DNA from: Streptomyces triticirhizae
GTDB lineage: Bacteria; Actinomycetota; Actinomycetes; Streptomycetales; Streptomycetaceae
DNA: 64,000 nt
Assembly (NCBI RefSeq): GCF_003696235.1
Contig: NZ_RFFJ01000008.1
Location: 1-64,000 of the forward strand
Direction of reading: 5' to 3'
Shown piece after piece: positions 28,643 through 47,573 of the stretch. The notes below the pieces were generated by a model. It did not search any database. It saw nothing but the letters and a program-made list of their open reading frames with translations, and had not been told where the DNA came from. Position numbers and translations under genes: made by a program. Each line of letters opens with the position of its first letter. The stretch's first letter is position 1.

Positions 28643-29817
28643 AACACAAGCAGCTGCCTGGCCAGGCACTTGAGGCCCTCAGCCCTGAGATGATCCGCCG
28701 CTACCTCACGGCCCAGGGTTGGGGTCTGGTCCAGGAGGAGCCGCGGGCCGAGGTCTGGGGGCTTGAACTGCCTGAGGGGCGTGTCGAGGCGCTGTTGCCC
28801 ACAGACTCGCGCCTGATGGACTACGTCCAGCAACTGCAGATCCTCTTCAACACCGTGGCTGTTGTCGAAGACAAGGAGCCATTCGTTGTTCTGCGCGGCG
28901 TAGGGCTGGCTCAGACCGATGTGCATCAGGTTCGCCTGCTACCTGAGGGCACAGCTCCGGGCACCGTGTCGCTGGCTGAAGGCAGTCGTGCTGTGGGTAG
29001 TCTGCGTGACCTCTTCGTTAGCGCCGCGTACCGCGCAACGACCTGGCTCCAGAATCAGCAGCCGCGTCCCGTGGAGCCGATGCGCAAATCGAACCAAGTG
29101 TACGATTTCATCAGTCGTCGCGTGCTTCTCGGTCTGACACAACCGGGCAGCTACATCCTGACTGCAGAGGTTCCTCTGACGTCGCCAGTTCCTGAACAGC
29201 TGACGTTGGGCAGCGAGGGAAGGTTCGGTGGCCTGCCGCTCGCTCGACGTGTGTCGATGGCCTTCTTCGACGGCGCTGCTTCTGCTCACAAAGCAGCTGC
29301 TTACGCCACACGTAATTCGGGAGATCTAGCGCTCTTCGAAGAAGAGGCGCGACGTGGGTTGTCGGCCAATGTATGCGAGGCTCTATCAGAGCTCTCTTCA
29401 TACGGGAAAGTTCCCTTTGAGTTGCACCCATTGTGGGCGAACGATCTTCCGTTGGAAGAACCTGGCCGTATTCTTGCATTCGGGCGCGAGACGATTGAGT
29501 ACCTGCGCTCTGGGGCCGAGTATCTCCGTGAACGCTATGGCCGCCAGGGGGTATCCATTCGCGGCTTCATTACCAAGCTGGAGCGTGAACCAACCACAGG
29601 TCCTGGAACCGTCATTCTCCTTGGTCGTCCTGAGGATGAACCGACTAGCCGTGCCATGAGGGTGTACGTCGAGCTGGGAACCGAAGACTACCTCCGGGTG
29701 GGGCAAGCTCACCTCGACCGTCAGGAGATCGTGCTCCAAGGCGATCTTGAGCGCTCCGGGAATCGGTGGAACCTGGTGCGAGTGCATAGCCTGACAATCG
29801 AGGAGATCAGAGAGTGA
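28639..29817 (+). CDS. orphan protein, second gene of operon A
   Basis: 392 residues from ATG 28639, overlapping the previous stop by four bases. I do not recognise the family. The N terminus (EMIRRYLTAQGWGLVQEEPRAEVWGLEL) looks like a short alpha-beta domain, followed by LMDYVQQLQILFNTVAVVED. The middle has helical stretches (SAHKAAAYATRNSGDLALFEEEARRG). The C-terminal 100 residues are beta-rich (GFITKLERE, GTVILLG, RAMRVYVELGTEDYLRVGQA, LQGDLERSGNRWNLVRVHSL), possibly an OB-like or beta-barrel domain. No membrane segment or signal peptide. It is the candidate system-specific component of operon A; its GC is lower than the chromosome's. Confidence 0.7.
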   Translation: MKHKQLPGQALEALSPEMIRRYLTAQGWGLVQEEPRAEVWGLELPEGRVEALLPTDSRLMDYVQQLQILFNTVAVVEDKEPFVVLRGVGLAQTDVHQVRLLPEGTAPGTVSLAEGSRAVGSLRDLFVSAAYRATTWLQNQQPRPVEPMRKSNQVYDFISRRVLLGLTQPGSYILTAEVPLTSPVPEQLTLGSEGRFGGLPLARRVSMAFFDGAASAHKAAAYATRNSGDLALFEEEARRGLSANVCEALSELSSYGKVPFELHPLWANDLPLEEPGRILAFGRETIEYLRSGAEYLRERYGRQGVSIRGFITKLEREPTTGPGTVILLGRPEDEPTSRAMRVYVELGTEDYLRVGQAHLDRQEIVLQGDLERSGNRWNLVRVHSLTIEEIRE

Positions 29818-29906: not shown

Positions 29907-32900
29907 ATGGAGGTCGAGAACGCACGCGACAAGCCCCAGCCCATCGCGCCCGGCGACTACCCCGTCGGTGTGCGACTGGAGGAATTGACGCCGGGAGCGC
30001 AGGTCAGTGGTCTGACAGCCGCTGGCCCCGTGACAGTTGTGAGCGCCGACTGGCGGGGCAGCAGCGCGATCGAAGTCGTTTACCAGGACGACTCACACAC
30101 CTTCGGCAGCGTCTTCCTCTACAGGGAGCATGAGGCGAACCTCAAACTGTACGAGCCCGCCTCCCGCGCCGACTTCTCCGGTGACCCTGCCGCATTCCGG
30201 CTTGTTGCAGAGGCCCTGCGTCTCCGCATGGCAGGGCTGTTCGATCCGATGCTCGCCGTCACTACGTCGGACCTCGAGGCGCTTCCTCACCAAATCCGCG
30301 CTGTTTACGCTGAGCTCCTGCCCCGCACGCCGCTCCGCTTTCTGTTGGCCGATGACCCTGGCGCGGGCAAGACCATCATGGCGGGCTTGTACGTGAAGGA
30401 ACTGCTGCTCCGGGGCGATCTGGAGCGCTGCCTGATCGTTGTGCCCGGATCCCTGGTCGAGCAGTGGCAGGACGAACTTCTCGACAAGTTCGGTCTCCGC
30501 TTTGAGTTGCTCACTCGGTCCCTCGTCGATTCCATTCCTGACAGCAGCGTCTTCGAGCACCACTCTCGGCTTATTGCACGGATGGACCAGCTGTCCCGAT
30601 CAGAGGAGCTCATGCAGCAGCTCCGAGACACAGACTGGGACCTCGTCGTGGTCGATGAAGCCCACCGCATGTCGGCCCACTGGTTCGGCAGCAAACTGAA
30701 AACCACGCGTCGATACCAGCTCGGACAGCTCCTGGGTAATATCGCCCGTCACTTCCTCCTGATGACCGCCACCCCGCACGCTGGCAAGGAAGACGACTTC
30801 CAACTCTTCCTAGCTCTGCTCGACGCGGACCGATTCGAGGGAAAATACCGCGAAGGCGTCCACACTGTCGATGCCGGCGGGCTGATGCGCCGCATGGTTA
30901 AGGAGGATCTTCTTACCTTCGAGGGAAAGCCTCTCTTCCCCGAGCGACGGGCCTACACCGTGCCGTACGAGCTGTCGCCGGCCGAGCATGACCTCTACGA
31001 GGCCGTCACGGAGTACGTCCGCAACGAGATGAATCGTGCAGACCGACTGCGTGCGGCTGGTGATGGACGCCGAGGCAACACCGTCGGCTTCGCGCTCACA
31101 GTTCTCCAGCGCCGTCTCGCCTCCAGCCCGGAAGCGATCTTGCGTTCCCTGGAGCGGCGCCGTGAGCGGCTGGTCCGCCGCCATCGGGAGATGCTGGCTG
31201 CTCCGACCACATCCCACCGGATTGATGACGAACAGCTCGGTCGCCGCTACAACGGCGTGACCGTGGATGAGGACTGGCAGGGTCGGCTCGACGACCTGGA
31301 CAGCCACGAACGAGAAACGCTGGAAGAGGAAGTCCTCGACGCGGCGACCGCCGCCCGCACCGCCGCCGAGCTGTCCCTAGAGATCGATCAGCTCGGGAAC
31401 TTGATCGAGCTGGCCTCACACGTCCAGTTCTCGGGCGCTGACCGGAAGTGGACTGAACTCCGATCCCTGCTCCAGGACCACCACGAGATCCGCGACCGAG
31501 ACGGCAACCCTCGCAAGATCATCATCTTCACGGAACACCGAGACACTCTCAGCTACCTAGTCGGGCGCATCCGCAGCCTCCTCGGACAGCACGAGGCAGT
31601 TCAGATGATCCACGGCGGCATACGACGCGACGAGCGTCGCCGTATACAGGAGCTGTTCACCCAGGAGCGCGATGTCCGCGTCCTCATCGCCACTGACGCC
31701 GCTGGCGAGGGCCTCAACCTGCAGCGCGCTCATCTTATGGTCAACTACGACCTTCCCTGGAACCCCAACCGCCTCGAGCAGCGTTTCGGCCGCATCCACC
31801 GCATCGGCCAGACCGAGGTCTGCCACCTGTGGAATCTGGTCGCCACTGACACCCGCGAAGGCGCTGTCTATCACCGACTTCTGGACAAGATCGAGCAGCA
31901 GCGCATCGCCTACCGGGGCCAGGTCTTCGACGTCCTCGGCGAAGCTTTCGAGGAGCAGCCCTTGCATGAGCTGCTCATGGAGGCCGTCCGGTACGGCGAC
32001 CAGCCCGAGGTGCGAGCCCGGCTGGATCTGGTCATCGACCACACCGTCGGCGAGGGCCTCGACGAACTCCTCGCCGAGCGCGCCCTACACAGAGACCTGC
32101 AGACCGAAGCAGAAGTAACCGAAGCTCGCCTGCGCCTGGAGGAAGCCCGGGTACGGCGACTCCAACCCCACTATGTCGAAGCGTTCTTCCGCGCAGCCTT
32201 CAATGAACTGGGAGGGCGGCTGACGAGGCGCGAAGCTGGACGATTCGAGATCACCAATGTCCCCGCCACACTCCTGAACCGGTCCCCACGCCGTACCCTG
32301 GCCGCTCCTGTGCTACGCCGCTACGACCGCGTCGTCTTCGACCGAGACCTGATCCGCAGCCGAGGCCGGATAGAAGCAGCCCTGCTTGCCCCAGGACACC
32401 CGCTGATGGAGGCTGTCGTCGACGCCACCATTGAACGCCACGCGGCAGTGCTCAAGGCGGGCAGCATCCTCATCGACCGTACGGACCCGGGACAGACGCC
32501 CCGGCTCCTCGTGGCTCTCACACAAGAGATCAGCAACAGCCATCCGCAGCCGAACGTTGTCAGCAAGCGCTTCGACTTCGTCGAGCTCACACCTGACGGC
32601 CGGGCCAACCCCGCAGGCCCTGCCCCCTACCTCGACTACGACCCTCCAGCTGAGGACGAAGCCGAAGCCGTCACGCGGGAGGCTGCCCGTCTCGCCACAC
32701 AGCCCTGGCTGTCCGACGGCATGGAGGAGACCGCTGTTGTTTGGGCCGCCGACCACGCCGTACATGAGCACCTGCGCTCAGTGCGCGATCGGATAGTCCC
32801 TGAAGTACGGCGGATCCGTGAGCAGGTGCAAGAGCGCCTCAACCACGAGATTGACTTCTGGTATGCCCGCCACCTCGAGCTTCTCGACGCCCAGGAACAA

Positions 32901-33509
32901 GGACGAAAGCTGAAGCTGCGCCCGGAGACAGCACGGCGCCGGGCAAACAATCTGGAAGAACGGTTGGAGCGACGCCTGCACGAACTGGACCTTGATGAGA
33001 GGCTCCTGCCGCGCCCACCCCGCGTGGCCGGCGGAGCGCTGGTCCTACCGCAGGGGATGGTCGACCAGCTGCTAGGACGAAGCCCAGGCCAGGCCGACAT
33101 CACGGAGGCCGCACGCGATACCGCGGCAATCGAGCACCGAGCTGTTGCGGCTGTGATCGAGGCCGAGCGCGCCCTCGGGCGCAGCCCGGAGGAGATGCCG
33201 CCGAACAACAAGGGCTTCGACTTGAGGTCATGGTCAGAGGGCGGGGAGGATCTTCTTCACCTGGAGGTCAAGGGCCGCTTGGCTGGCTCGAAAGACTTCA
33301 CCGTGACCCGCAACGAAGTCCTCCATGCGAAGAACGTGGGCGATCACTACCGTTTGGCCCTTGTGTCCGTCTCGCCTGATGGTCCTAAACACGACAAGGT
33401 CCGGTACCTGAGCAACCCCTTCCGTACGACCAGCACGGATGACTTCAACGTGACGAAGTTCGTCTTCCACTGGAAGCGCATGTGGGAGCAGGGCGATGTA
33501 CCTCACTGA
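29907..33509 (+). CDS. SNF2-family helicase with C-terminal DUF3883 (operon A)
   Basis: 1200 residues from ATG 29907 with GGGAGG upstream. Superfamily 2: ALPHQIRAVYAELLPRTPLRFLLADDPGAGKT (Walker A about 148-156), VVPGSLVEQWQDEL, VVVDEAHRMS (DEAH at 250-253), LLMTATPHAGKEDD. The second lobe has IIIFTEHRDTLSYLVGRI, VLIATDAAGEGLNLQRAHLM and NRLEQRFGRIHRIGQ. The last 120 residues are DUF3883: NNKGFDLRSWS, LLHLEVKGRLAGS and VTRNEVLHAKNVGDHYRLALV, a nuclease-like fold with Asp and E-V-K. DNA translocase of the predicted defence operon; it is homologous along its full length to the minus-strand gene at 59222. Confidence 0.9.
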   Translation: MEVENARDKPQPIAPGDYPVGVRLEELTPGAQVSGLTAAGPVTVVSADWRGSSAIEVVYQDDSHTFGSVFLYREHEANLKLYEPASRADFSGDPAAFRLVAEALRLRMAGLFDPMLAVTTSDLEALPHQIRAVYAELLPRTPLRFLLADDPGAGKTIMAGLYVKELLLRGDLERCLIVVPGSLVEQWQDELLDKFGLRFELLTRSLVDSIPDSSVFEHHSRLIARMDQLSRSEELMQQLRDTDWDLVVVDEAHRMSAHWFGSKLKTTRRYQLGQLLGNIARHFLLMTATPHAGKEDDFQLFLALLDADRFEGKYREGVHTVDAGGLMRRMVKEDLLTFEGKPLFPERRAYTVPYELSPAEHDLYEAVTEYVRNEMNRADRLRAAGDGRRGNTVGFALTVLQRRLASSPEAILRSLERRRERLVRRHREMLAAPTTSHRIDDEQLGRRYNGVTVDEDWQGRLDDLDSHERETLEEEVLDAATAARTAAELSLEIDQLGNLIELASHVQFSGADRKWTELRSLLQDHHEIRDRDGNPRKIIIFTEHRDTLSYLVGRIRSLLGQHEAVQMIHGGIRRDERRRIQELFTQERDVRVLIATDAAGEGLNLQRAHLMVNYDLPWNPNRLEQRFGRIHRIGQTEVCHLWNLVATDTREGAVYHRLLDKIEQQRIAYRGQVFDVLGEAFEEQPLHELLMEAVRYGDQPEVRARLDLVIDHTVGEGLDELLAERALHRDLQTEAEVTEARLRLEEARVRRLQPHYVEAFFRAAFNELGGRLTRREAGRFEITNVPATLLNRSPRRTLAAPVLRRYDRVVFDRDLIRSRGRIEAALLAPGHPLMEAVVDATIERHAAVLKAGSILIDRTDPGQTPRLLVALTQEISNSHPQPNVVSKRFDFVELTPDGRANPAGPAPYLDYDPPAEDEAEAVTREAARLATQPWLSDGMEETAVVWAADHAVHEHLRSVRDRIVPEVRRIREQVQERLNHEIDFWYARHLELLDAQEQGRKLKLRPETARRRANNLEERLERRLHELDLDERLLPRPPRVAGGALVLPQGMVDQLLGRSPGQADITEAARDTAAIEHRAVAAVIEAERALGRSPEEMPPNNKGFDLRSWSEGGEDLLHLEVKGRLAGSKDFTVTRNEVLHAKNVGDHYRLALVSVSPDGPKHDKVRYLSNPFRTTSTDDFNVTKFVFHWKRMWEQGDVPH

Positions 33510-33653
33510 CTGCGGCTCTTGGTGTAGGAGCGGGGTGAGGTGAAGTTGGGGCGGTTGCCAGCGGATGAGGCCATACTGAGTGACTGGGCCGACCGGTCTG
33601 CCGAGCGGCCCACCATGCATCACCCGCCCAGCCTGGAGAGAAGAGCGTTCCTC

Positions 33654-36446
33654 ATGACGACGGTGCCCAAGCGCAAGCTAATCGAGGTTGCGCTACCGCT
33701 CGAAGCGATCAATCGCGAGTCGATCCGGGAGAACTATATCTACAAGGGCAACCCATCGGGGGTGCACAAGTGGTGGGCCCAGCGACCGCTAGCAGCAGCC
33801 CGCGCAGTCCTCTTCGCGCAGCTGGTGGATGACCCTACGTCTCGCCCGGACAAGTTCCCGACGGAGGAGGCGGTCGCCGCCGAGCGAAAGGAACTGTTCG
33901 AACTCATCGAGCGCCTGGTGGTCTGGGAGAACACCAAGGACGACGCTCTTCTGCATAAAGCTTATGAGAAGATCCTCGAGTCCACTGACGGGAATCCTCC
34001 TCCGATCCTCGATCCGTTCGCGGGCGGCGGCTCCATTCCTCTGGAGGCTCAGCGACTCGGTCTCGAGGCACATGCCTCGGACCTCAACCCGGTGCCAGTC
34101 CTGATCAACAAGGCGCTGATCGAGATCCCGCCAAAGTGGGCCGGGCGCCCCCCAGTCTTTCCCGGCGCCGCGGAAGAGCATGTGGCTGACACATGGCCGA
34201 AGGCTTCGGGCTTGGCCGAGGATGTTCGACGCTATGGCGCATGGATGCGCGACGAGGCCGAGAAGCGGATCGGCTACCTGTATCCGAAGGCCAAGCTTGA
34301 CGACGGCAGCCAGGCCAATGTCATCGCCTGGATTTGGGCGAGGACAGTTCGCTGCCCGAACCCGGCATGCGGTATTCAGATGCCTTTGGCCAGGTCATGG
34401 TGGCTTGGCAAGAAGAAGGGGAAGGAAGCATACGTAATCCCGAAAGTGCACGACGGCCACGTCACTTTCGGTATCGGCAGCGATCTGAAGGATGCGCCGA
34501 AGAATGATAACGACGGCACAGTGCGGCGCTCTGGGGCCGTGTGTATCGGATGTGGAGATACAGTACCGCTTTCCTATGTGCGAAAGGAAGGAAAATCTGG
34601 CCGCATCGATTGCAAGCTGATGGCCATCGCTGCGGAAGGGAAGCGGCGACGGGTTTACCTTCCCCCGAGCGACGAGCATGAGAAATGTGCGCGCGTCCCA
34701 CGGCCGGATAATTTTCCGGATACGGAGCTCCCAGAGGCGGCTTTGGGATTCCGTGTTCAGAGTTACGGGATGACCCGCCACGCTGACCTCTTCACTGATC
34801 GACAACTCACCGCTGCTGTAACGTTTAGCGATCTGGTGCGCGAGGTTCGGCAGACCGTAAAAAACGATGCAATAAATGCTGGTATGCCAGAAGGGGAAAA
34901 CCTGGAACAAGCTGGCGCGGGAGCTGAGGCTTACGCTGATTCGGTAGCCACCTATCTTGCTTTCGCGTTGAGTAAGTTCGTTGACTACAATTGCGCATTG
35001 GCTGTCTGGTATCCAAAGGAAGATCGACCAAAAAACCTGTTTGCGCGTCAGGCGATTCCTTTCGTTTGGGATTTTCCGGAAGTTGCACCCCTGGCGGACC
35101 TGGGAGGCTCTTGGAGTGGGAGCATCCGCGTCGTATCTGAGGCTCTTCTGGGGGCCCCCGCAGTCGAGCCTATTGGAGAAGTTCGACAGGCGAATGCTGC
35201 CGCGCGAAACTACCCTTCAGGTATGGTGATCTCCACAGATCCTCCGTACTATGACAACATTGGCTATGCGGATCTCTCGGACTTCTTTTACGTCTGGTTG
35301 CGGCGATCCCTGGGCGATGTCTACACAGAACTCCTCGGGGTAATGCTGACGCCGAAAGCGGAAGAACTTGTCGCTGATGAATTTCGGCACGGGGGAAAGA
35401 AGGGAGCCGAGAGATTTTTTGAGCGTGGATTCGAGAAGGTGTTTGAGAGTGCCAGGAAAGGCTACTCGGAGAACTTTCCGATCACTGTTTATTATGCCTT
35501 CAAGCAATCTGAATCCACTGATGAAGGGGAGGCGTCGACAGGCTGGGAAACCTTGCTCGCAGGAATGATTCGTGCCGGTTGGTCTGTGACAGGCACTTGG
35601 CCAATGCGTACCGAACGTGCTGGCCGGACACGTCACATCTCAAGTAATGCTCTAGCGTCGTCAATCGTTCTTGCTTGCCGACCCCGACCAGAAGATGCCC
35701 CAACAACCACTCGTCGGGCATTCCTCGCTGCGCTAAAAGACGAGATGCCCTTGAAGCTCAACGAGTTGCAGCAAGGCTCCATTGCCCCTGTTGACCTCGC
35801 ACAGGCTGCGATTGGCCCGGGAATGTCAGTTTTCTCCCGCTATGATCAGGTTCTAGAGGCCGACGGTAGCCCTATGTCCGTGCGTACTGCTCTTACGCTC
35901 ATCAACCAGATCCTCGACGAGGTGCTGTCCGAGCAGGAGGGGGACTTCGATGCCGATACTCGGTTTTGCGTGCAGTGGTTCAAACACTTCGGCTGGAACG
36001 ATGGAACGTTCGGTGACGCCGACAACATGGCTCGAGGCCGGAACACCTCGGTCGAGGGTGTGCAGCGGGGAGGGGTGTTCCGGGCTGTAGCCGGCAAGGC
36101 GCGCCTCATCCCATTCTCCGAGATGCCCTCTGACTGGCACCCTGAGGCAGACGAGCGCATCAGCCTCTGGGAAGTGGTCCTCCATCTCGCCAAGGCGCTC
36201 GACGAGGAAGGTGGGGAAGCCGCCGCCCGCCTCATGGCCGCAGCTCGCGCTCGGGTGGACATGGATGCGGCTCAGGAGCTCGCGTACCTGCTTTTCTCCA
36301 TCTGTGAGAAGCGTGGCCTCGCGCAGGAGGCGATCCTCTTCAACGGCCTCGGCCAGTCCTGGTCCGACCTGACAGCCGCGTCCCGCAAGCAGGCAGTCGC
36401 GAAGCCCAAGGCCGTTCAGGATGGGTTTGCATTCGGTGAGGAATAG
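33654..36446 (+). CDS. DUF1156 adenine-specific DNA methylase (operon A)
   Basis: 930 residues from ATG 33654, where KLIEVALPLEAINRESIREN begins the DUF1156 domain; the frame is open 114 bases further upstream without a better start. SAM motif I ILDPFAGGGSIPL (121-126 core) and catalytic TDPPYYDN (DPPY about 529-532), diagnostic of N6-adenine or N4-cytosine methylation. Two CXXC-like zinc-ribbon pieces lie between (CPNPACGI, CIGCGD). DUF1156/COG1743 enzymes associate with DUF499 ATPases and SNF2 helicases in predicted restriction systems. The gene is mosaic: roughly 34.4-35.7 kb is near 50% GC by eye, far below its ends. Confidence 0.9.
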   Translation: MTTVPKRKLIEVALPLEAINRESIRENYIYKGNPSGVHKWWAQRPLAAARAVLFAQLVDDPTSRPDKFPTEEAVAAERKELFELIERLVVWENTKDDALLHKAYEKILESTDGNPPPILDPFAGGGSIPLEAQRLGLEAHASDLNPVPVLINKALIEIPPKWAGRPPVFPGAAEEHVADTWPKASGLAEDVRRYGAWMRDEAEKRIGYLYPKAKLDDGSQANVIAWIWARTVRCPNPACGIQMPLARSWWLGKKKGKEAYVIPKVHDGHVTFGIGSDLKDAPKNDNDGTVRRSGAVCIGCGDTVPLSYVRKEGKSGRIDCKLMAIAAEGKRRRVYLPPSDEHEKCARVPRPDNFPDTELPEAALGFRVQSYGMTRHADLFTDRQLTAAVTFSDLVREVRQTVKNDAINAGMPEGENLEQAGAGAEAYADSVATYLAFALSKFVDYNCALAVWYPKEDRPKNLFARQAIPFVWDFPEVAPLADLGGSWSGSIRVVSEALLGAPAVEPIGEVRQANAAARNYPSGMVISTDPPYYDNIGYADLSDFFYVWLRRSLGDVYTELLGVMLTPKAEELVADEFRHGGKKGAERFFERGFEKVFESARKGYSENFPITVYYAFKQSESTDEGEASTGWETLLAGMIRAGWSVTGTWPMRTERAGRTRHISSNALASSIVLACRPRPEDAPTTTRRAFLAALKDEMPLKLNELQQGSIAPVDLAQAAIGPGMSVFSRYDQVLEADGSPMSVRTALTLINQILDEVLSEQEGDFDADTRFCVQWFKHFGWNDGTFGDADNMARGRNTSVEGVQRGGVFRAVAGKARLIPFSEMPSDWHPEADERISLWEVVLHLAKALDEEGGEAAARLMAAARARVDMDAAQELAYLLFSICEKRGLAQEAILFNGLGQSWSDLTAASRKQAVAKPKAVQDGFAFGEE

Positions 36447-36534: not shown

Positions 36535-39500
36535 ATGGCGACGAGCAACCGCGAGCGTGTAGGCAACGGCTTCGAACTGTTGGCAGAGGGGCTGGGGCCC
36601 TTCGTCGACGAAGTCATGACAGCCGCAACACCCAACGGGCAGGACTGGGTCAAGGTGCTCGAAGCGCGCGACGCCCAGAAATTCGGCACGAACCGAACCT
36701 ACTCGAAGTCGGACCCGGCCGTGCAGCTCAAGGTCATCACCGAGGAGTGGCGGGCTGGGTTTAAGGACCGGCTCTCCCGAGGCGAGCAGTCCATCGCATC
36801 GCTTCTCCGGGACCATCGGAACAAATGGGCCCACAACGAGCGGTACAACCCCGATGACGCGTCCCATGTCCTAGACCTGATCGAGCGCCTGCTCACGGCT
36901 GTTGGTGACACCCACCGGGCTGCGGCCGTGCGCAAGGAGAAGAAAAACCTCCTGCGGGCCATGCATGACGCGGAGACCCGCGAGGCGGTCAGGGAGTCTG
37001 TTCGCACAGCAGTCGGAGTCCCCGGCATGGTTGGCAGGGGGCAGACCATCAAGCCATGGCGCGAGGTCATTCGTCCGCACCGAGATGTGGCGGCAGGCCG
37101 ATACGCCTCCGCTGAGTTCGCGGCCGACCTCGACGGAGTGAGCCGTAACGAGGGGGGCGAGGAGTACGTACATCCAGTCCGCTTCTTCGAACGTACCTAC
37201 CTCACTGCCGGCCTGCGGAACCTACTGTCTCTGGCCGCCCGACGACTATCCGGCGACGCTAGCGCGGACCCTGTCATCAACCTCCAGACTAACTTCGGTG
37301 GTGGCAAGACCCACTCGATGCTGGCTCTGTATCACTTGGCCTCCGGTACACCTCTCGCGGAATTCCCTCAGGACCTGTACGACGTAATCGCGGAGACTGA
37401 AGTCGTCTGGGATGGCATCGGCGAGATTAAACGTGTCACGCTTGTCGGGAACCGTATCAGCGCAGCTGACGGCGAAACCAAGGACGATGGGACGCACGTC
37501 AACACGCTGTGGGGCGAACTCGCCTGGCAGCTCGGCGGCCGAGAGGCCTACGAGAAGGTCGCGGCGGCAGATGAGGCTGGCACTAACCCGGGGCGCGCTC
37601 TCCAGGAACTCATCGCCGTGCACAGTCCATGCCTCATCCTCATCGACGAGTGGGTCGCCTACGCTCGCGAGCTGTACGCCAAGGACAACCTTCCCGCAGG
37701 CACCTTCGACAGTCAGTTCACGTTTGCTCAGACCCTCACCGAAGCTGTCAAGGCAGTGCCGGGTGCGCTGCTCGTCGTGTCCATCCCTGCCTCAGACAAG
37801 GCAGACGGCAGCGACGATGACGCCACCGGCGCCAGTGACCTCGAGATCGGCGGCCTCCACGGCAAGGCAGCACTCAAGCGGCTGCAGAATGTGGTTCGTC
37901 GCGTCGCCTATCCTTGGCAGCCTGCCACCGCACAGGAATCCTTCGAGATCGTCCGCCGACGGCTCTTCGAAGAGACTGATGCTGACGGCAGGGCTGAAAT
38001 CGGAGCCGTTGCTAGGCAGTTCATCGAGTTCTATCGTTCCAAGCACGGCGAGTTCCCGCGTGAATGCTCCGAATCCGCCTACGAGGACCGAATCAAGGCG
38101 GCTTACCCGATACACCCCGAGCTCTTCGACCGCCTGTACAAGGATTGGTCTACCCTCGAGCGCTTCCAGCGCACACGTGGTGTGCTGCGCATGATGAGCA
38201 CCGTCGTTCATGCACTCTGGGAAGCGAATGACCCGAGCCCGCTCATTATGCCTGGCTCGATTCCACTCCAAGATCCCAGGGTTGTCAGTGAGCTCAACCA
38301 GTATCTCGATGATGAGTGGAAGGTCATTATCTCAACGGATGTGGACGGCGAGGGCTCCATCCCGGTCCGCATCGACGAGGAACGCACCACCTTCGGCCAG
38401 CGACGCCTCACGCGTCGCCTTGCCCGGACGGTTTTCTTCGGCTCCGCGCCCACTCTCAACAGCGATCACAAGGGCATCGACCGGCAGTACGTATGGCTGG
38501 GAGTCGCCATCCCAGGTGACACCATCGGAAACTTCGGTTCCGCTCTGGACCTCCTCAGCCAGCGCACCACCTTCTTCTATCCGGAAAACGGCCGTTATTA
38601 CTACAGCACCCAGGCGTCCATCGCTCGCTACGTTCAGGACCGGGCTGAAGCGCTTCGGGGCCGTCCCGAAGAGGTATGGGCGGAGATCGCGGAGCGGCTG
38701 CGCCGGGACCAGATGAAGTCAACGGGCCACTTCGCCCGAGTACATCCCGCTCCTGAAGGAACTGACGGCGTACCCGACTACGAAGAGGCTCGCCTGGTCC
38801 TCCTCCACCCCAGATTCTTCCACAGTAAGTCACAGAAGGAGACCAAGGCACTCGATTTCGTTGCTAAGTGCCTCAAGCAACGCGGCTCGTCTCAGCGTAT
38901 CAACGTGAACCAGTTGGCGTTCCTTGCTCCTGATGAGCGGCGGCTCTTGGAATTGGAGGACGCCGTCCGTGACTACTTGGCGTGGAAGGAAGCGTACGCA
39001 GGTCGTGGTGAAACCGGTCTGAACCTTACTGCTCAGCAAGCCAGTCTTGCTGAGACCCGTTGCGCGCAGGCCGATGTAACAGTCAACCTGAGAATCTCGG
39101 GAACCTACACATGGCTTATTGTTCCCGAACAATTGCGTGGCGACCGCGAGTATGAGCTCAGGCCGTTGCGCTGTGAGGGCAGCGAGGACCGGCTCGCTGT
39201 GAGGGCTTCGAAGGTCCTCGTTGATGCAGGACTATTCACCGTCGAGTTCGGAACGCGCAACCTTCGCCGGGACCTGGACACTCACCTGCGTTCAGTCTGG
39301 GAAACTGGTGAAGTCTCGCTTGGTGCGCTGTGGGGCTATTACCGCAAGCACCCCTATCTGATGCGACTCAGGGACCGGTCGGTCTTGGAGCAGGCCATGC
39401 TTGCTGTGTTGTCGGATGGCATCACATGGGAGGCAGAAGGGTTCGCCCTTGCCGAGGGGCACGACGAGACGAGCGGTGCCTACGTCGGTCTCGCCCTCCC

Positions 39501-39990
39501 GATGCAGAACTCCTTCGGCCCGCTCACGGATGCAACGCTGCTTGTACGGCCGGAGCGGGCGAACGAACAGCGTCAGCGTGAGTTGGCTGCAGCTGCCCAA
39601 GCGGAAGCGGCACGACAGGAGGCCGAAGCACGCGCCGCATCAGCCGGGCCCCTGGCTTCACCGACAGTCGATCGTCCGACTGGTGACGGTGGCAGGCTCA
39701 GTGCCGACACTACGACGCCCGCACTTTCGGAGGCCACTGCGCCGGAGCCTGTACGCAACGTCAGGTTCTTCGGTTCGTATCCAGTAGACGCAGAGCGTAG
39801 CGGTCGTGACTTCGCCAAGTTCGTCGACGAAATCCTTCCCCACCTCCGGTCTGCATCGGGTGCTGAGGTCAAGATCCGGCTGGAAGTCGAGGCACGCTGT
39901 CAGGACGGCTACCCGAACGACAAGGTTCGCACGGTTACGGAGAACGCCCGGACTTTGAAGTTCGATCAGTATGGCTTCGAAGACGAGTAG
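36535..39990 (+). CDS. DUF499 ATPase with Swt1-like HEPN N terminus (operon A)
   Basis: 1151 residues from ATG 36535. Residues 1-110 form a helical domain ending with RNKWAH (Arg95-x4-His100), the catalytic motif layout of HEPN ribonucleases. The DUF499 ATPase follows: PVINLQTNFGGGKTHSMLALYHLA (Walker A about 253-261) and CLILIDEWVAYARELY (Walker B), then TLLVVSIPAS-like sensor strands (PGALLVVSIPASDK). The last 200 residues include a variable Ala/Gln linker and a conserved C-terminal domain (FFGSYPVDAERSGRDFAKFV to VRTVTENARTLKFDQYGF). Last gene of operon A, followed by a perfect hairpin terminator. Confidence 0.88.
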   Translation: MATSNRERVGNGFELLAEGLGPFVDEVMTAATPNGQDWVKVLEARDAQKFGTNRTYSKSDPAVQLKVITEEWRAGFKDRLSRGEQSIASLLRDHRNKWAHNERYNPDDASHVLDLIERLLTAVGDTHRAAAVRKEKKNLLRAMHDAETREAVRESVRTAVGVPGMVGRGQTIKPWREVIRPHRDVAAGRYASAEFAADLDGVSRNEGGEEYVHPVRFFERTYLTAGLRNLLSLAARRLSGDASADPVINLQTNFGGGKTHSMLALYHLASGTPLAEFPQDLYDVIAETEVVWDGIGEIKRVTLVGNRISAADGETKDDGTHVNTLWGELAWQLGGREAYEKVAAADEAGTNPGRALQELIAVHSPCLILIDEWVAYARELYAKDNLPAGTFDSQFTFAQTLTEAVKAVPGALLVVSIPASDKADGSDDDATGASDLEIGGLHGKAALKRLQNVVRRVAYPWQPATAQESFEIVRRRLFEETDADGRAEIGAVARQFIEFYRSKHGEFPRECSESAYEDRIKAAYPIHPELFDRLYKDWSTLERFQRTRGVLRMMSTVVHALWEANDPSPLIMPGSIPLQDPRVVSELNQYLDDEWKVIISTDVDGEGSIPVRIDEERTTFGQRRLTRRLARTVFFGSAPTLNSDHKGIDRQYVWLGVAIPGDTIGNFGSALDLLSQRTTFFYPENGRYYYSTQASIARYVQDRAEALRGRPEEVWAEIAERLRRDQMKSTGHFARVHPAPEGTDGVPDYEEARLVLLHPRFFHSKSQKETKALDFVAKCLKQRGSSQRINVNQLAFLAPDERRLLELEDAVRDYLAWKEAYAGRGETGLNLTAQQASLAETRCAQADVTVNLRISGTYTWLIVPEQLRGDREYELRPLRCEGSEDRLAVRASKVLVDAGLFTVEFGTRNLRRDLDTHLRSVWETGEVSLGALWGYYRKHPYLMRLRDRSVLEQAMLAVLSDGITWEAEGFALAEGHDETSGAYVGLALPMQNSFGPLTDATLLVRPERANEQRQRELAAAAQAEAARQEAEARAASAGPLASPTVDRPTGDGGRLSADTTTPALSEATAPEPVRNVRFFGSYPVDAERSGRDFAKFVDEILPHLRSASGAEVKIRLEVEARCQDGYPNDKVRTVTENARTLKFDQYGFEDE

Positions 39991-40623: not shown

Positions 40624-41340
40624 TCAGCTGGCGGGCCTCTTCCTACGGTCGCGCCTGGGATCGCCGTACGTCTTCTTCCAGGTTTTGAGGTGCTTCCGGT
40701 CGCCCTGGCCGCCGACGCCTGCCTGGAGGACGTAATCCAGACGGGAGCCCTTGAGCCACGAGGCGAAGAGGTTGCGGCCGATGACGATGATGTCGTTGTC
40801 GTTCGCGTACTTCTCGGCATCGGTGGTGAATCTGGTGTTCGTCACGAAGATCGCGACATCGGCCGCGAAACTGGTCCGAGCCCCCAACAGGTCTCGCATG
40901 TCATGGCTGACGACCGACCGGTGCGTGGCGAAGTGCTTGCACTGGACCACCATCGAGCGACCGTCCGGCAGCACGCCCGCCACGTCCCTGCCCAGGTCCC
41001 CCTTTCCGCCGACCCACTCGACCTCGGTGCAGCCGCCCTCGCGGAGCATTGCGGCCACCATCCGCTCGAAGTCCTGCCAGTGCAGCTTGTCCACCTTCTC
41101 CAGCGTGCGGTTGGCATCCAGCACCCGCTGCTCCGCCCGGAACACCGCGTCCTTGGCGCGTATCTCCCGGTGGGTGCGCCAGCCCCACCACACCAGGGCC
41201 CCGACGCCGGCCAGCCCCACCGCCGCGAGCACGAACGGCCAGATCCGCGACCAGAAGATCACCACCGCCGCCAGCAGTGCGATGCCGGCGGCCGTTAACC
41301 GTCGGTTCCGCCTGCGCCGCCGTCCACGCCGCCGAGCCAT
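40624..41340 (-). CDS. membrane-anchored Mrr-type restriction endonuclease
   Basis: 238 residues from ATG 41340, preferred because GGAGGGGG lies at the right distance; ATG 41349 abuts it. The N terminus is very basic (ARRRGRRRRRNRR), then two hydrophobic segments (LTAAGIALLAAVVIFW and FVLAAVGLAGVGALVWWGW). The C terminus is an Mrr_cat domain: LHWQDFERMVAAMLREGGCTEVEWVGGKGDLGRDVAGVL, with Asp and then MVVQCKHF (Q-x-K), and FVTNTRFTTDAEKYA. Mrr-like enzymes cut modified DNA; two membrane helices would hold it at the inner membrane. It is convergent with operon A and transcribed alone. A relic of the same gene is at 62966. Confidence 0.85.
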   Translation of the reverse strand: MARRRGRRRRRNRRLTAAGIALLAAVVIFWSRIWPFVLAAVGLAGVGALVWWGWRTHREIRAKDAVFRAEQRVLDANRTLEKVDKLHWQDFERMVAAMLREGGCTEVEWVGGKGDLGRDVAGVLPDGRSMVVQCKHFATHRSVVSHDMRDLLGARTSFAADVAIFVTNTRFTTDAEKYANDNDIIVIGRNLFASWLKGSRLDYVLQAGVGGQGDRKHLKTWKKTYGDPRRDRRKRPAS

Positions 41341-41413
41341 CAGCCTCATCCCCCTCCGATCCCGTCACCGACACCAAGCGTGGACGAGAAGCCACTCAGC
41401 GCGAAAGAGGCCC

Positions 41414-43410: not shown

Positions 43411-44706
43411 TTATGCCTCCGATGGAGTTCCGTCCGCCTGGATACGGCGGAAGCCGAGGTAGGGAACGAGGGCTTTAGGCAGGGTCACGGAGCCGTCCTG
43501 CTGCTGGTGCTGTTCGAGCAACGCGGCCAGGGTGCGGCCGATGGGCAGGCCGGAGCCGTTCAGGGTAGCCACGGGCACGGTCTTGCCGTGCTCATCGCGC
43601 GTGCGGATGCCAGCCCGACGGGCCTGGAAGGTGCCGCAGTCCGAGACGGACGAGATCTCGCGGTAAGTGTTCTGGCTCGGCAGCCACACCTCGATGTCGT
43701 AGGTGAGCTGGGCGGAGAAGCCCATGTCGCCCGCGGCGAGCGTCACCACGCGGTAGGCAAGATCGAGCTCCTTCAGGCACGCCTCTGCGTGAGCGACCAT
43801 CTTCTCCTGCTCGGCCTGGGATTCCTCGGCCGCGCAGATGCGGACCATCTCGACCTTGGAGAACTGGTGCTGCCGCAGGATGCCGCGGGTGTCGCGGCCG
43901 TACGAACCCGCCTCGGAGCGGAAGCAGGGGGTGTGGGCCGTGAGCGCCAAGGGCAGTTCGGCCGGCGGGATGATCTCGTCGGCGTAGAGGTTCGTGAGCG
44001 GAACCTCGGCGGTCGGGATCAGGAACAGCTCCCGGTCGGCGACGCCGGTGGCGAAGAGGTCCTCTTCGAACTTCGGGAGCTGGCCGGTGCCGGTCATCGT
44101 CTTCCGGGTTACGAGGAACGGCACCGAGTGCTCGACGTAGCCGTGCCGACGGGTGTGGAGATCCAGGAACAGGGTCGCCAGCGCGCGCTCCAAGGCGGCC
44201 CCGACGCTGCGGGCGATGCTGAAGCGTGGACCCGAGAGCTTTGTGCCGCGGCCGAAGTCGAGGATGCCCATGGTCTCGCCGAGGGCAACGTGATCCCTGG
44301 GCTCGAATGCGAACGTCGGCGCGGTGCCGACCCGCCGCACCTCGACCGCGAACTCCTCGGAGTCTCCGTCGGGTGCGGAGTCGAGCGGCAGGTTGGGGAT
44401 GCTCAGCAGCAGCTCGCGCAGTTCGATCTGGATCTGTTCCTGCTCGGCTTCTGCCTCGCGAATCTGCTCCTTGATCTTGCGTGCCGACTCCTTGAGCGCC
44501 GAGACGTCCCCGCTGGCCTTCGCCGTCTTCTGCACCTCCTGGGCGACGCGCTTGGATTCGGCCCTCAGCTCGTCGGCGGTGCGGATGCTCTGGTTCCGTC
44601 GAGACTGGAGACTCTCCAGGGAGGAGAGGTCCAGGGTGTATCTGCGGCGCGCGAGCCGGCGGACGGCCTCGTCGCCCATGTCGATCAGAACGCGAGCATC
44701 ATGCAT
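43411..44706 (-). CDS. serS: second seryl-tRNA synthetase
   Basis: 431 residues from ATG 44706. N-terminal tRNA-binding coiled coil (RRNQSIRTADELRAESKRVA to EQEQIQIELRELLLSIPNLP), then a class II catalytic domain. Motif 2 is FRSEAGSYGRDTRGILRQHQF and motif 3 is NGSGLPIGRTLAALLEQHQ; the serine-binding TAEVPLTNLYADE is intact. All catalytic signatures look functional. It is inside an accessory island, so it is presumably additional to the housekeeping enzyme. Duplicate SerRS enzymes either confer resistance to seryl-adenylate mimics (as in albomycin producers) or supply Ser-tRNA for natural-product assembly (as in valanimycin). Confidence 0.93.
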   Translation of the reverse strand: MHDARVLIDMGDEAVRRLARRRYTLDLSSLESLQSRRNQSIRTADELRAESKRVAQEVQKTAKASGDVSALKESARKIKEQIREAEAEQEQIQIELRELLLSIPNLPLDSAPDGDSEEFAVEVRRVGTAPTFAFEPRDHVALGETMGILDFGRGTKLSGPRFSIARSVGAALERALATLFLDLHTRRHGYVEHSVPFLVTRKTMTGTGQLPKFEEDLFATGVADRELFLIPTAEVPLTNLYADEIIPPAELPLALTAHTPCFRSEAGSYGRDTRGILRQHQFSKVEMVRICAAEESQAEQEKMVAHAEACLKELDLAYRVVTLAAGDMGFSAQLTYDIEVWLPSQNTYREISSVSDCGTFQARRAGIRTRDEHGKTVPVATLNGSGLPIGRTLAALLEQHQQQDGSVTLPKALVPYLGFRRIQADGTPSEA

Positions 44707-44713
44707 GAGAGGG

Positions 44714-45415
44714 CTACTCCTCTAGCGGCTTCTGTGGTGAATCGACGTTAGCAAGGGTGGAGGCTGCGTCCGTCCCTGATATCGGTACGTGGCCTGGAGC
44801 CCAGCCATGGCGTCGATCCTGGTTGTCCAGCTCTTCGAGCAGGGCCGCGGCGTGCTTGGCCATCGGGCCGTCGTCGATGGCCAACGGAACCAGGTATGGC
44901 GCCTCGGGGAAGAACAGCGGCATCGCGCTCCCCGGCGTCCGGCTCAGGTGCCAGTCGAGTACCGACAGCAGTAGACCGTGAGCGACGACAACCCTGGGGC
45001 CCGGCTTCTCAAGCGTGGCCATCAGACCCAGCAGCATGCGGTGGATGCCCTCGCGCTGTGACTCACCGGCGCCGGGTGGCTTCACCCACGGGCCGTGGTG
45101 CCGGAGCCACGCCGCGTACTCCAGGAACGGTGCCCCCTCGAAGTAGCCATAGTCGAGTTCGTTGAGAAGCGGGATGACGACGGGAAGTCGTGCTTCCTCG
45201 CCGATGAGGAGTGCGGCGGTCTGCTGGGCGCGCGGGAACGCGCTGGCGATCCACGTCCGGGCCGACTCGATGGGGAGCGTCGGCCGGGCGGTGTGGCATG
45301 CGCGTACCCCTTCCTCGTCGAGCTGGAGCTGCACGGCCGGGTCGCCGTTGACCAGGTAGCGGGCGCTGTACTCGGTGCGGCCGTGTCGCAGTAGGTGTGT
45401 TGTCACCGCGATCAC
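44714..45415 (-). CDS. histidine phosphatase superfamily protein
   Basis: 233 residues from GTG 45415, overlapping the upstream kinase stop by four bases (GTGA). Catalytic THLLRHGRTEYSARYLVNGDP (RHG motif, His about residue 10), Arg in IASAFPRAQQTAALL, acid in LNELDYGYFEGAPF, and second histidine in RVVVAHGLLLSV. Phosphoglycerate-mutase-like fold. Dephosphorylates a small molecule or sugar phosphate. Its place between two kinases and SerRS suggests a phosphate put on by a kinase is later removed. Confidence 0.9.
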   Translation of the reverse strand: MIAVTTHLLRHGRTEYSARYLVNGDPAVQLQLDEEGVRACHTARPTLPIESARTWIASAFPRAQQTAALLIGEEARLPVVIPLLNELDYGYFEGAPFLEYAAWLRHHGPWVKPPGAGESQREGIHRMLLGLMATLEKPGPRVVVAHGLLLSVLDWHLSRTPGSAMPLFFPEAPYLVPLAIDDGPMAKHAAALLEELDNQDRRHGWAPGHVPISGTDAASTLANVDSPQKPLEE

Positions 45416-46323
45416 CTCGTCGCGGCGATCTTCAGCAGGGCATCCAGAACAGCCATCATCTGGAGCAGGCGCGGATCACCCGTCTCCTCGTAGTACAGGA
45501 GGCCGTCCGTGCTCAGCAGCAGGCACCAGGGGAGGATGTCATCGACGGGGATGCCCGATGTGCGGCTGGCGCGGCGGAGGCGGTAGGCGGTGCCGCCTTC
45601 TACCTGGTAGTAGATCGTCCAGAAGGCCCAGTCGAACGCGGCGTCCCCTGTCATGGGCAGCGGGTCGAGCAGCACTGGCTGCCCGTCCAGGGTGAACGGG
45701 ACGTTCTCCCGGTACAGGTCCGCGTGCAGCACCGTCTGGCGGTGCGACTCTTCCCGCAGGTCAGCCGTATGGAAGAGTGCCCGTTCCGCACGTTGTCGGT
45801 GTTCGGTGAGCTTCAGACGCCGGTCGATGCGGGGGCGAACCTCTTCGGCGATGAAGTTGCGCAAGGTGGGCAGCTCAACGTTGGCCTGGCCGTGGGCGCC
45901 CTCTTCGTGTGCTCGTTGAATCTCGGCGGCGACGAGACCTTCCTCATGTGGCGGACGTGCGGCGCCACCGGGGACACCTCCGACCGCGCGCAACGCCGCG
46001 ACCGCGCGACTGTTATCTGCCGCCTGCACGATGTCGTGCTTCTCGCGATGCCACAGGCGGAGGACCCGGAGCTCGCGGGAGTAGCGGTCGTGGTCCGGCC
46101 ACGCCTTGAGGAGCAGGTGCTTGCCCTGCCTGTCGACAGCGGTGACGAGGACTGAGGCGTGCCCGGCGTCGTGGTAGCCCTTGAGGGTGAGCGACCATCG
46201 CCCGGCCGTAGCCGTTAGAAGTTCCGGGGCCGCGTCGATCCAGGCGTCAAGGACCTGGCCGTAGTGGGCCGTCAGCCGTTGGCGGCACCCCGGTGGCACG
46301 GGCGGGAGTGTCGAGGCGTCCAT
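45412..46323 (-). CDS. aminoglycoside 6-phosphotransferase-like kinase
   Basis: 303 residues from ATG 46323, which overlaps the preceding TAA by one base (TAATG). APH(6)/hydroxyurea-kinase pattern: WSLTLKGYHDAGHASVLVTAV, LLLKAWPDHDRYSRELRVLRLW, catalytic TVLHADLYRENVPF (H-x-D-x4-N) and metal-binding LLDPLPMTGDAAFDWAFW. Family members phosphorylate streptomycin or related small molecules; embedded in this cluster it may be a biosynthetic or protective kinase. A longer open frame upstream, antisense-like, is ignored. Confidence 0.85.
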   Translation of the reverse strand: MDASTLPPVPPGCRQRLTAHYGQVLDAWIDAAPELLTATAGRWSLTLKGYHDAGHASVLVTAVDRQGKHLLLKAWPDHDRYSRELRVLRLWHREKHDIVQAADNSRAVAALRAVGGVPGGAARPPHEEGLVAAEIQRAHEEGAHGQANVELPTLRNFIAEEVRPRIDRRLKLTEHRQRAERALFHTADLREESHRQTVLHADLYRENVPFTLDGQPVLLDPLPMTGDAAFDWAFWTIYYQVEGGTAYRLRRASRTSGIPVDDILPWCLLLSTDGLLYYEETGDPRLLQMMAVLDALLKIAATR

Positions 46324-47573
46324 TAGCTGAGCAGCACTCCTTCGTGAACCAGCTCGTTGGTGAGCGCCGGGAAGTTGCTGAGGGTCTCCTCGATGAGGAC
46401 CTGGACCTTGTCGACCTGGGCCGTCGGCTCCGAGAGGCGCACGAGAACTCGCCAGGGCTGGTTGAGTCGTTCGCCCGTCGCGCTGACCAGGTGGACCTCG
46501 GCGTACCCACCGGTCTCCTCGTGCAGGGCGCGGGCGAGGCGCATGGCGGCGAGGTTGTAGAGCTTGCCGACGTGGTAGACGGGGTTCTTCCCGCTGGCGC
46601 CTTCCATGTTCATCGGGCGCAGCGGCGTGATGAGGCCGTTGACGCGGTTGCCGCGGCCGACGACCCCCTCGTCCCCCGACTCGATGGAGCTGCCGGTGTA
46701 GGTGAGGTAGAACTCGTCCTTCTCCGGGACGTCCCGCACGTTGAGCCGGAAGTCGACGGGCGTGCCCGGCAGCCGCAGGCCCGCGAGGCGTCGGCACTCG
46801 GCGAGGATCACCTGCTTGTTCTCCAGGTACGTGGCTCGGCTGCCGACGTACGGGGACATCTGCGGGACGCAGAGCACCACGGCGGCGCGGTCTCCCTCGT
46901 AGTAGCCCATGAGCTTCACGTCCGTGCCGCACCAGCGGTGCGCCTCCCTGAAAGGGCTTTCCCCGGAGAGATCGTCGACAAGCTCGCGGACGAAGGACTC
47001 AAACGGGCTCAGCGGCGCCCAGCCCGTACCGAGCGAGGTGTCGTTGGCCAGCAGCACCCGCCGCTCCCGCAGATCGTCGATCGTCCGTGGGGCGAACCAT
47101 CGGGTGCGCTCCGGCGTGTCTCCCTCGGTCAGGACGGCGCCAGGGCTGGAGTTGCTCGTGATGTGGAACCTGATGTCCAGGTGATCGGCGACGGCCGGCA
47201 GCCGCTCGGCGAAGAACGTCCGGACGGTTGTCTCAACGATGTCATCCACTGGTATTTGGTGGTCACCGCAGGCCGGAGCCGCGCGGCCGTTGACGAGCAC
47301 CCGCACCGGGGCCACCATGCGCCCGGCGCCGTACCGCACCTCGCTGGCGCCGCCCAGCAGCGCGAGCTTGTCGAAGTTGTGGTGTAACACGGCGCCGAAG
47401 TTCTCCAGGCAGTAGCGGCTGTACGCCTGGGACAGCCGTTCGGCGAGATGATCGGCGAGGGTGTCGGGATGGCCGAGGCCCTTGCGTTCCACGATGGTCG
47501 TCGCGTCGGGGTAGGGCGTGCCGGTCTCGATCACGACGCGGCTGCCGCCGTAGTTCCTGGCGACTCGGTTCAC
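46323..47573 (-). CDS. archaeal-type methionine adenosyltransferase
   Basis: 416 residues from GTG 47573, with AGGGAG seven bases upstream. It is not the bacterial MetK family but the archaeal one: VERKGLGHPDTLADHLAERL at the N terminus, HHNFDKLALLGGASEVRYGAG, DHQIPVDDIVETTV, LLANDTSLGTGWAPLSPFE and GDEGVVGRGNRVNGLITPLRPMNMEGASGKNPVYHVGKLYN. Makes S-adenosylmethionine from ATP and methionine. Chromosomal streptomycetes already have bacterial MetK, so this copy probably supplies SAM for the local pathway or resists a feedback inhibitor. It is unusual in bacteria outside such clusters and suggests transfer. Confidence 0.92.
   Translation of the reverse strand: MNRVARNYGGSRVVIETGTPYPDATTIVERKGLGHPDTLADHLAERLSQAYSRYCLENFGAVLHHNFDKLALLGGASEVRYGAGRMVAPVRVLVNGRAAPACGDHQIPVDDIVETTVRTFFAERLPAVADHLDIRFHITSNSSPGAVLTEGDTPERTRWFAPRTIDDLRERRVLLANDTSLGTGWAPLSPFESFVRELVDDLSGESPFREAHRWCGTDVKLMGYYEGDRAAVVLCVPQMSPYVGSRATYLENKQVILAECRRLAGLRLPGTPVDFRLNVRDVPEKDEFYLTYTGSSIESGDEGVVGRGNRVNGLITPLRPMNMEGASGKNPVYHVGKLYNLAAMRLARALHEETGGYAEVHLVSATGERLNQPWRVLVRLSEPTAQVDKVQVLIEETLSNFPALTNELVHEGVLLS

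Follow-up and report, generated by a model that had tools for sequence, protein, structure and literature searches.

The 64-kb stretch of Streptomyces triticirhizae DNA analyzed here (contig NZ_RFFJ01000008.1, positions 1 to 64,000; hereafter the window) contains two complete three-gene Hma systems, each consisting of a helicase-nuclease (HmaA), a methylase (HmaB) and an ATPase (HmaC), and the HmaC components are its two DUF499 ATPases. Family profile and predicted fold support the assignment of the N-terminal domain of both HmaC proteins to HEPN, and both domains keep the Arg and His of the HEPN motif. We consider it fairly probable (about 0.66) that the HEPN domain of HmaC is a ribonuclease (RNase) arm of the Hma, or Type-1 bacteriophage exclusion (BREX)-related, restriction-like system, added to its deoxyribonuclease (DNase). 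What is new here is a clade of HEPN-HmaC proteins that lack the Arg and nevertheless hold the domain under selection.

HEPN domains at the start of both HmaC ATPases

HmaC of copy A (36535-39990, plus strand) is a 1151-aa fusion of HEPN with a DUF499/AAA+ ATPase (PADLOC HmaC, expectation value (E) 2.9e-273, from residue 171 on; Pfam DUF499, 2e-26), and HmaC of copy B (53009-56398, minus strand, ATG at 56398) is a 1129-aa HEPN-DUF499 fusion (PADLOC HmaC, 1.4e-260). The Pfam family HEPN_Swt1 (PF18731; cut-off 27.5 bits) matches residues 12-124 of A (36568-36906, plus strand; 4.9e-29, 101 bits) and the same part of B (56048-56368, minus strand; 2.4e-28, 99 bits). A profile search of the genome returned both domains, with identical coordinates for A, and the source genome assembly has no further HEPN_Swt1 match. 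By six-frame pattern search and translation, the motif RNKWAH of A has its Arg95 at 36817-36819 and its His100 at 36832-36834 (plus strand), and the motif RNRWAH of B has its Arg90 at 56131-56129 and its His95 at 56116-56114 (minus strand). Across all six frames, the window has three occurrences of R[NDH]x[WYF]xH, two of which are those of ATPases A and B. Both copies thus carry the Rx4-6H motif of the HEPN superfamily with x4 spacing, and the residue right after the Arg is Asn in both, polar as in other HEPN RNases; across 122 distinct proteins this residue is N in 105, D in 7, H in 6 and K in 4.

A preliminary description of the window had pointed out a helical domain with R-N-K/R-W-A-H at the start of both ATPases, had placed the pair at Arg95/His100 and Arg90/His95, and had likened it to that of HEPN ribonucleases. 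Our data agree on each point, with copy B lying outside the range 36535-39990 to which that description was attached. It had further held that the motif is kept while the surrounding sequence diverges, and A and B are indeed only 35-37% identical over residues 1-120, against 51-63% over residues 181-600.

AlphaFold2 modelled residues 1-172 of A with a mean predicted local distance difference test score of 91.5 and a predicted template modelling score of 0.84, and residues 1-122 of B with 95.8 and 0.87, respectively. The motif sits at helix 82-99 in the model of A and at helix 78-94 in that of B; in each, this third main helix ends shortly after the Arg and just before the His. Since the HEPN motif is placed at the end of helix 3 and the start of the loop to helix 4 (PMC3710099; statements on published work, here and below, concern the passages covered), its position in both models supports the HEPN assignment. 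Asp46, in helix 38-50 of A, is Asp in 55 of 59 rows of a narrower alignment and in 84 of 116 rows of a wider one, which wavers there; an acidic helix-2 residue near the active site is a feature of many, though not all, HEPN families.

Structural neighbors were sought with Foldseek and with VIA-align, which re-ranks the Foldseek list. By itself, Foldseek matched neither model to a PDB entry at E <= 0.001. After re-ranking, the top row for model A was the yeast Swt1 domain 4pqz (Z 7.3, 125 aligned, root-mean-square deviation (rmsd) 3.7), with the non-HEPN rows 9hdd (Z 6.8), 2hld (6.5) and 1r0d (6.4) within 1 Z of it and thereby tied, and all Z values, for A and B alike, fall in the warning range of the tool, below about 13, where they may reflect a common helical arrangement. 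For the B core the top 14 rows were HEPN-type (Z 6.3-8.2, rmsd 3.0-4.0), the first other entry being 6yx5 at rank 15, and the top rows include 2q00, 2hsb, 8pe3 (Csm6), 3o10 (sacsin HEPN), 4pqz (Swt1) and 7bxo (MntA-HepT). Among the structures counted as HEPN, we take 2q00, Csm6, 1ufb, 1wty and 1jog to be HEPN-type. The PDB titles of 2hsb, 3o10, 8xdj and 8xeh name HEPN. Moreover, 1wwp and 2hsb are named HEPN and Swt1 is called HEPN in PMC3710099, and MntA-HepT is described as a HEPN system in a published abstract. A sequence search of solved structures with the whole HmaC of A found no structure of an HmaC homologue (best match insignificant, E 0.42).

What argues for a HEPN fold is the concentration of HEPN entries in the first rows for B, together with the profile match. 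The possibility that the pair is a chance motif, or that the domain is helical but not HEPN, would be in keeping with R-x4-H being a weak pattern on its own and with the Foldseek result; profile E-values near 1e-28 on two proteins of 45% identity, and a VIA-align ranking that puts HEPN structures first, nevertheless make it very unlikely, to the point of being hardly credible. The non-HEPN fold that the preliminary description had named as counting against its idea is therefore not what profile and ranking indicate.

Conservation of the Arg/His pair

Relatives were collected in several steps. In the first set the ATPase part alone served as the query, and the best 80 of 214 actinobacterial loci were fetched; wider, overlapping samples covered 296 genomes of the phylum, 392 of the genus and 394 of the class, with at most 30 loci fetched from each, and the analysis covered the fetched loci and, of the other matches, G679:C7. 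Ten plasmid loci were picked for taxonomic spread among 60 listed of 130 records. The relatives searches, which did not sample near kin, yielded one more Arg-less member (L181, whole gene L196). The loci fetched in the first set and the three wider samples include 156 with an HmaC-type core, of which 125 are strong and 31 weak. HEPN is present on 121 of the 125 strong cores, the four others being L010, two contig-edge fragments (L067 and L156) and L092, and on none of the 31 weak ones. Left out of the counts below were L067 and L156, in which the contig ends within the ATPase, L092, whose frame starts close to the beginning of the core, the window's own duplicates, the re-fetched loci L137-L144 and nine near-identical proteins that were collapsed. 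L180, a fragment with an intact motif, also stays uncounted, as do L184 (G038) and L187 (G008). The latter two carry HEPN_Swt1 with an intact R-N-x-W-A-H on frames of 2106 and 2167 aa, with no HmaC core in the fetched stretch, and are probably another HEPN fusion. As a separate observation, the HmaC of L092 misses its N-terminal part including HEPN, and other frames lie there, one of them PIN-like by eye.

Residue and column numbers of the HEPN alignments follow copy A. For an alignment of 59 N-terminal domains, A and B were combined with 57 of the 80 loci after removal of near-copies and HEPN-less rows; only eight of its columns are invariant, among them Arg95 and His100, while the neighboring positions 97 and 98 vary. 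A larger alignment of 81 proteins comprises A, B and 79 loci, without L067, which is cut by its contig; Arg is found in 80 of them and His in 80, the exception being L010. The distinct HEPN-fused proteins (n = 114, A and B included) keep both residues in 107 cases, with Ala for Arg in six and Arg for His in one (L164). With the plasmid set added (n = 122), 115 are intact, six Arg-less and one His-less; with L196 (n = 123), 115 keep both, seven are Arg-less and one His-less, so that eight of 123 break the pair. The plasmid loci with an intact motif (eight of ten) come from Thermus oshimai, T. thermophilus, Meiothermus, Tolypothrix, Chlorohelix, Bradyrhizobium, Kitasatospora papulosa and Microbacterium, and the Arg/His-bearing proteins span at least five phyla.

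This pattern bears on an alternative in which HEPN is mainly a non-catalytic module for dimerisation or RNA binding that controls HmaC assembly or gating, with the Arg and His being a leftover or serving in binding. Under such an alternative the pair would hardly be expected to stay invariant in the 59-row alignment although its neighbors vary, or to be kept in 115 of 123 proteins across so many phyla, and a purely structural role leaves unexplained why precisely the published catalytic pair is invariant. We regard this alternative as rather unlikely, though it gains from the Arg-less relatives described below.

The DNase arm and the proposed mechanism

All six proteins match the PADLOC models of HmaA, HmaB and HmaC (E from 1e-260 to 0), and the order HmaA-HmaB-HmaC, with the genes adjacent, is the same in both copies. 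In copy A (plus strand), HmaA (29907-33509; PADLOC E = 0) is an SNF2 helicase with a C-terminal NOV_C nuclease of the PD-(D/E)XK type (FDLRS...LEVKG; NOV_C 1.4e-15), and HmaB (33540-36446, coordinates of the longest frame, the real start possibly lying later) is a DUF1156 adenine methylase with DPPY and DPFAGGG motifs (PADLOC E = 0; DUF1156 8.2e-24). In copy B (minus strand), HmaA (59222-62737; PADLOC E = 0) has the same make-up (YDIRS...IEVKG; NOV_C 1.1e-16), as does HmaB (56445-59261; PADLOC E = 0; DUF1156 9.6e-30). The D...ExK nuclease motif is present in HmaA of both copies, as would fit an active nuclease. The copies are 57% identical in HmaA, 56% in HmaB and 45% in HmaC. The closest relative of HmaC A among the best 80 of 214 matches is that of a Streptomyces xylophagus system (81% in the ATPase part), and those of HmaC B are in three other members of the window's genus (87-88%). 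A recent in-place duplication of one system is ruled out by these values, 45% between A and B against 81% and 87-88% to outside relatives, and judging from the identities the two copies were acquired separately.

The HmaA nuclease motif is intact in all 62 loci (of 80) whose nuclease region lay in the fetched stretch. This indicates that HEPN generally comes in addition to the DNase, and the idea of HEPN as a general substitute for a lost DNase was rejected on the same count. The suggestion of the preliminary description that an RNase arm exists beyond DNA restriction accordingly holds as a proposal, and the Arg-less clade of seven described below speaks against taking it as strictly catalytic.

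In the proposed scheme, HmaB would mark host DNA, HmaC as an AAA+ ATPase would build a scanning or control complex, and HmaA, with its helicase and PD-(D/E)XK nuclease, would destroy unmarked DNA. The HEPN RNase on the ATPase would be a second effector, placed to respond to whatever the ATPase senses, possibly gated by ATP or target binding, and its action could have an abortive outcome. Dimerisation is known from other HEPN RNases, and by analogy the HEPN domains of HmaC may dimerise as well. If HEPN is an RNase, one small complex would couple DNA restriction to cell suicide. A different role for the same activity is conceivable, in which the RNase cuts a dedicated RNA, such as its own transcript or a tRNA, and acts as a regulator or as a toxin-antitoxin-like guard that fires when restriction is inhibited. 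HEPN is fused to the controlling ATPase and not to the nuclease, and PrrC, RloC and RNase LS are HEPN proteins that cut tRNA or mRNA in phage defence (PMC3710099), both of which would suit such a guard; an Rfam search of 27-64 kb, however, gave nothing above threshold except one tRNA, with no search aimed at an antitoxin partner made, and we consider a dedicated RNA target improbable.

The remaining 18 of the 80 loci comprise L055, cut before the motif, 13 loci with at most 5.3 kb upstream of HmaC, and four (L025, L046, L066 and L077) with more than 9 kb upstream and no helicase match. Full-length HmaA is found elsewhere in the genome for L025 (1370 bits) and L066 (1193 bits). The genome search found none for L046 and L077, where the best matches reached 50 and 97 bits, low scores that mean little as the profile also gives matches in 14 of 14 control genomes. 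These two loci, from Blastococcus sp. TF02-8 (L046) and Actinomyces denticolens (L077), carry HmaB and HEPN-HmaC with intact Arg/His. Beside HmaBC, L046 (6697-19099) contains genes that match MzaC (Z1 domain), MzaB and MzaD (DUF4420, putative PD-(D/E)XK family), along with a C-5 cytosine methylase and a Vsr endonuclease, and L077 (6670-18421) contains a gene that matches MzaC (Z1 domain), along with a HATPase protein and a C-5 cytosine methylase. It seems that another machine replaced HmaA in these loci while the HEPN-ATPase was kept, possibly in the form of an Hma-Mza hybrid, and HEPN could be a main effector there.

An Arg-less lineage and other points against an RNase arm

Besides the lack of a Foldseek match, the tied ranks of model A and the Z values in the warning range, several findings among the relatives weigh against an RNase arm. 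Two of the ten plasmid homologues (Aeromonas and Acidovorax) are without HEPN, which suggests that the core system can do without it. In L010 (Nocardia sp. CNY236; 3388 onward) HmaC has lost HEPN and starts in the linker after the methylase stop; its nearest Mycobacteriaceae relatives, with an 83% identical core, keep the domain. In L164 the HEPN His is replaced by Arg (RNRWARN) in an HmaC frame that is otherwise open (1193 aa). Furthermore, seven of the 123 HmaC proteins keep HEPN with Ala or Gly in place of the Arg, and, in five of them from the window's genus, counting by the Nei-Gojobori method with codon bootstrap gave a ratio of nonsynonymous to synonymous substitution rates (dN/dS) of 0.108 (0.057-0.178) for HEPN and 0.096 (0.068-0.130) for the ATPase.

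The seven Arg-less members are these five (L101 and L116-L119), L145 and L181/L196, and they belong to three actinobacterial families. The genus members read ETANAAHH or ETANAVHH, L145 reads DAANRLYHH and L181/L196 reads DVGNRLAH; Ala or Gly thus stands at position 95, and Asn96 and His100 are kept in all seven. They form one clade (Shimodaira-Hasegawa-like approximate likelihood ratio test (SH-aLRT) 97) within a mostly Arg-bearing tree, which was a quick one made without bootstrap, and a single clade is most simply explained by one old loss of the Arg. L145 was considered as an independent second loss and rejected, as it groups with the other Arg-less proteins (SH-aLRT 87, and 97 with L196). 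In the genus sample, five of ten HEPN-HmaC genes are Arg-less, and those five genomes have no other HmaC match; in G679 an Arg-less HmaC occurs together with an Arg-bearing one. Among 17 genomes of the family of G857, no Arg-less member was found besides G857 itself.

The Arg-less domains are well preserved in other respects. L101 and L145 score 102 and 107 bits against the Pfam HEPN profile, as high as A and B, and most of the other positions that at least 85% of 116 relatives conserve are also retained in the six Arg-less domains that were aligned. The positions replaced are 95, 98 and 99 in the active-site strip and, in the first helix, 8 (Lys in six of six), 6 (Asn in five of six) and Leu20 (Met in five of six). 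The motifs of the ATPase part and of the partner proteins are preserved as well: Walker A and B and the methylase DPPY are intact in all seven systems. DPFxGGG is intact in each of the six systems for which the fetched stretch included the start of the methylase, and the PD-(D/E)XK motif in the six with a fetched helicase; no Hma-type helicase was found in the stretch fetched for L145. For comparison, four Arg-bearing B-type genes have dN/dS of 0.187 (0.105-0.313) for HEPN and 0.064 (0.040-0.093) for the ATPase, and the pair L145/L196, at a synonymous divergence (dS) near 0.8 to 1.0, has 0.230 and 0.129. The low HEPN dN/dS of the Arg-less genes indicates that the domain is not decaying without its Arg, and a domain held under selection in this state does not need Arg catalysis for its retention.

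Either the Arg-less domain works by its fold, by RNA binding or by an altered site, or the role of the HEPN domain was never only catalysis; the rest of the HEPN superfamily offers precedents for either case, and its motif-less domains are probably RNA-binding (PMC3710099). A shifted active site, R92-x6-H99, is possible on sequence grounds in the five genus members. As a property of the whole clade it was rejected, because position 99 is Tyr or Ala in L145 and L196, and neither has an R-x4-6-H there. The mainly non-catalytic alternative raised above draws its support from the features of this clade, namely its breadth over three families with the His kept, its intact partner motifs, its ATPase-like HEPN dN/dS in the genus and its conserved positions outside the catalytic strip. 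We tentatively suggest, at somewhat less than even odds, an old pseudo-HEPN Hma lineage, in which the Arg was lost once before the spread over three families and the domain has been selected for a non-catalytic job such as dimerisation, RNA sensing or ATPase gating; if so, a single complex would have two outputs that can be uncoupled, DNA restriction and RNA-based suicide. Because selection keeps the domain in the Arg-less relatives, the HEPN domain probably has a non-catalytic role in HmaC too, alongside the RNase activity proposed for the Arg-bearing majority. The Arg-less clade, the His-to-Arg change of L164 and the domain-less Nocardia protein together offer a natural mutant series for separating catalysis from fold.

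Neighboring genes

The candidate defence pair PDC-M02A/PDC-M02B (27986-29817, plus strand; PADLOC 1e-79 and 4.2e-103) lies directly upstream of HmaA of copy A, and the same pair precedes the A-type Hma of S. xylophagus (L003) with 61% and 69% identity. A tRNA gene (27513-27586, plus strand) stands just before this defence cluster; tRNA genes are usual landing sites of mobile islands. A stand-alone Mrr-type restriction endonuclease (40624-41349, minus strand; Mrr_cat 2.4e-20) follows HmaC of copy A and is encoded on the other strand. The region separating the Hma copies contains, at 43411-47573 (minus strand), a seryl-tRNA synthetase homologue, an S-adenosylmethionine (AdoMet) synthetase (PF01941) and a histidine phosphatase; HmaB methylases need AdoMet.

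Immediately downstream of HmaC of copy B, two genes on the minus strand are candidate accessory genes. The first (51913-52884, 323 aa) is 84-85% identical in the four loci whose Hma is closely related to the B type (L113, L114, L115 and L079) and had no family match in profile scans, and the second (51336-51854, 172 aa) has the same placement in these loci, 77-92% identity and no significant family match. They are possibly a B-type accessory pair (51336-52884). Distant relatives of the 323-aa gene occur on five Streptomyces-type plasmids at 28-31% identity. Among the window proteins put through general family scans there was no match to PglZ/BrxZ, the mark of BREX proper, with no search aimed at PglZ made. 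In loci elsewhere, small toxin-antitoxin genes are annotated between HmaB and HmaC of L173 (Thermus thermophilus JL-18), and XisH/XisI and Uma2 genes between the methylase and HmaC of L171 (Tolypothrix).

Comparison with known systems

The HEPN-DUF499 fusion and the proposal of an RNase role were already published in 2013 and 2026, so that the idea of the preliminary description is sound and not new. Type-1 BREX-related systems have been defined with HEPN in 1370 taxa (PMC12839542, 2026), which makes HEPN-fused DUF499 ATPases common, and their HEPN was proposed there as a last-resort suicide effector. They share with the window systems the ATPase, the DUF1156 adenine methylase and the Swi2/Snf2 helicase with a C-terminal PD-(D/E)XK nuclease, and no basic difference appears from the passages covered; a C-terminal RRM-fold domain on the ATPase is a further trait of Type-1 BREX-related systems. 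The terms "inactive HEPN" and "Mza" are absent from the main text of that source, supplements aside. In the literature searched, supplements again aside, no Arg-less DUF499-fused HEPN lineage was found, for which we make no claim of priority, and the passages covered held no assay of the HEPN arm of DUF499 ATPases.

The Hma type of PADLOC (PMC8565338, 2021) has its HmaA, HmaB and HmaC models matched in order by both copies. It differs in that the PADLOC HmaC profile begins at residue 171 of copy A and omits HEPN, and surveys relying on this model alone will therefore miss the domain; NCBI names many of the plasmid homologues "Swt1 family HEPN domain-containing protein". RloC/PrrC and other HEPN RNases (PMC3710099) resemble the HmaC domain as HEPN proteins of phage defence, several of them tied to restriction systems. 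They have other partner domains, and tRNA anticodon-loop cutting, which has been shown for RloC/PrrC, sets them apart from HmaC, whose RNase activity is predicted. A published counterpart in the Abi2/Swt1 family is Ava_2192 (PMC3710099, 2013), in which HEPN is fused to an AAA+ ATPase overlapping DUF499, lies in an operon with an SNF2 helicase-DUF3883 protein and was predicted to be active. Fusion and operon type, with the SNF2 helicase-DUF3883 protein and restriction-modification components, are the same as in the window. According to the same source, Rx4-6H is partly conserved when all Swt1-like domains are taken together, and the ATPase may serve as an accessory factor in DNA looping; its passages covered here mention no Arg-less DUF499-fused clade.

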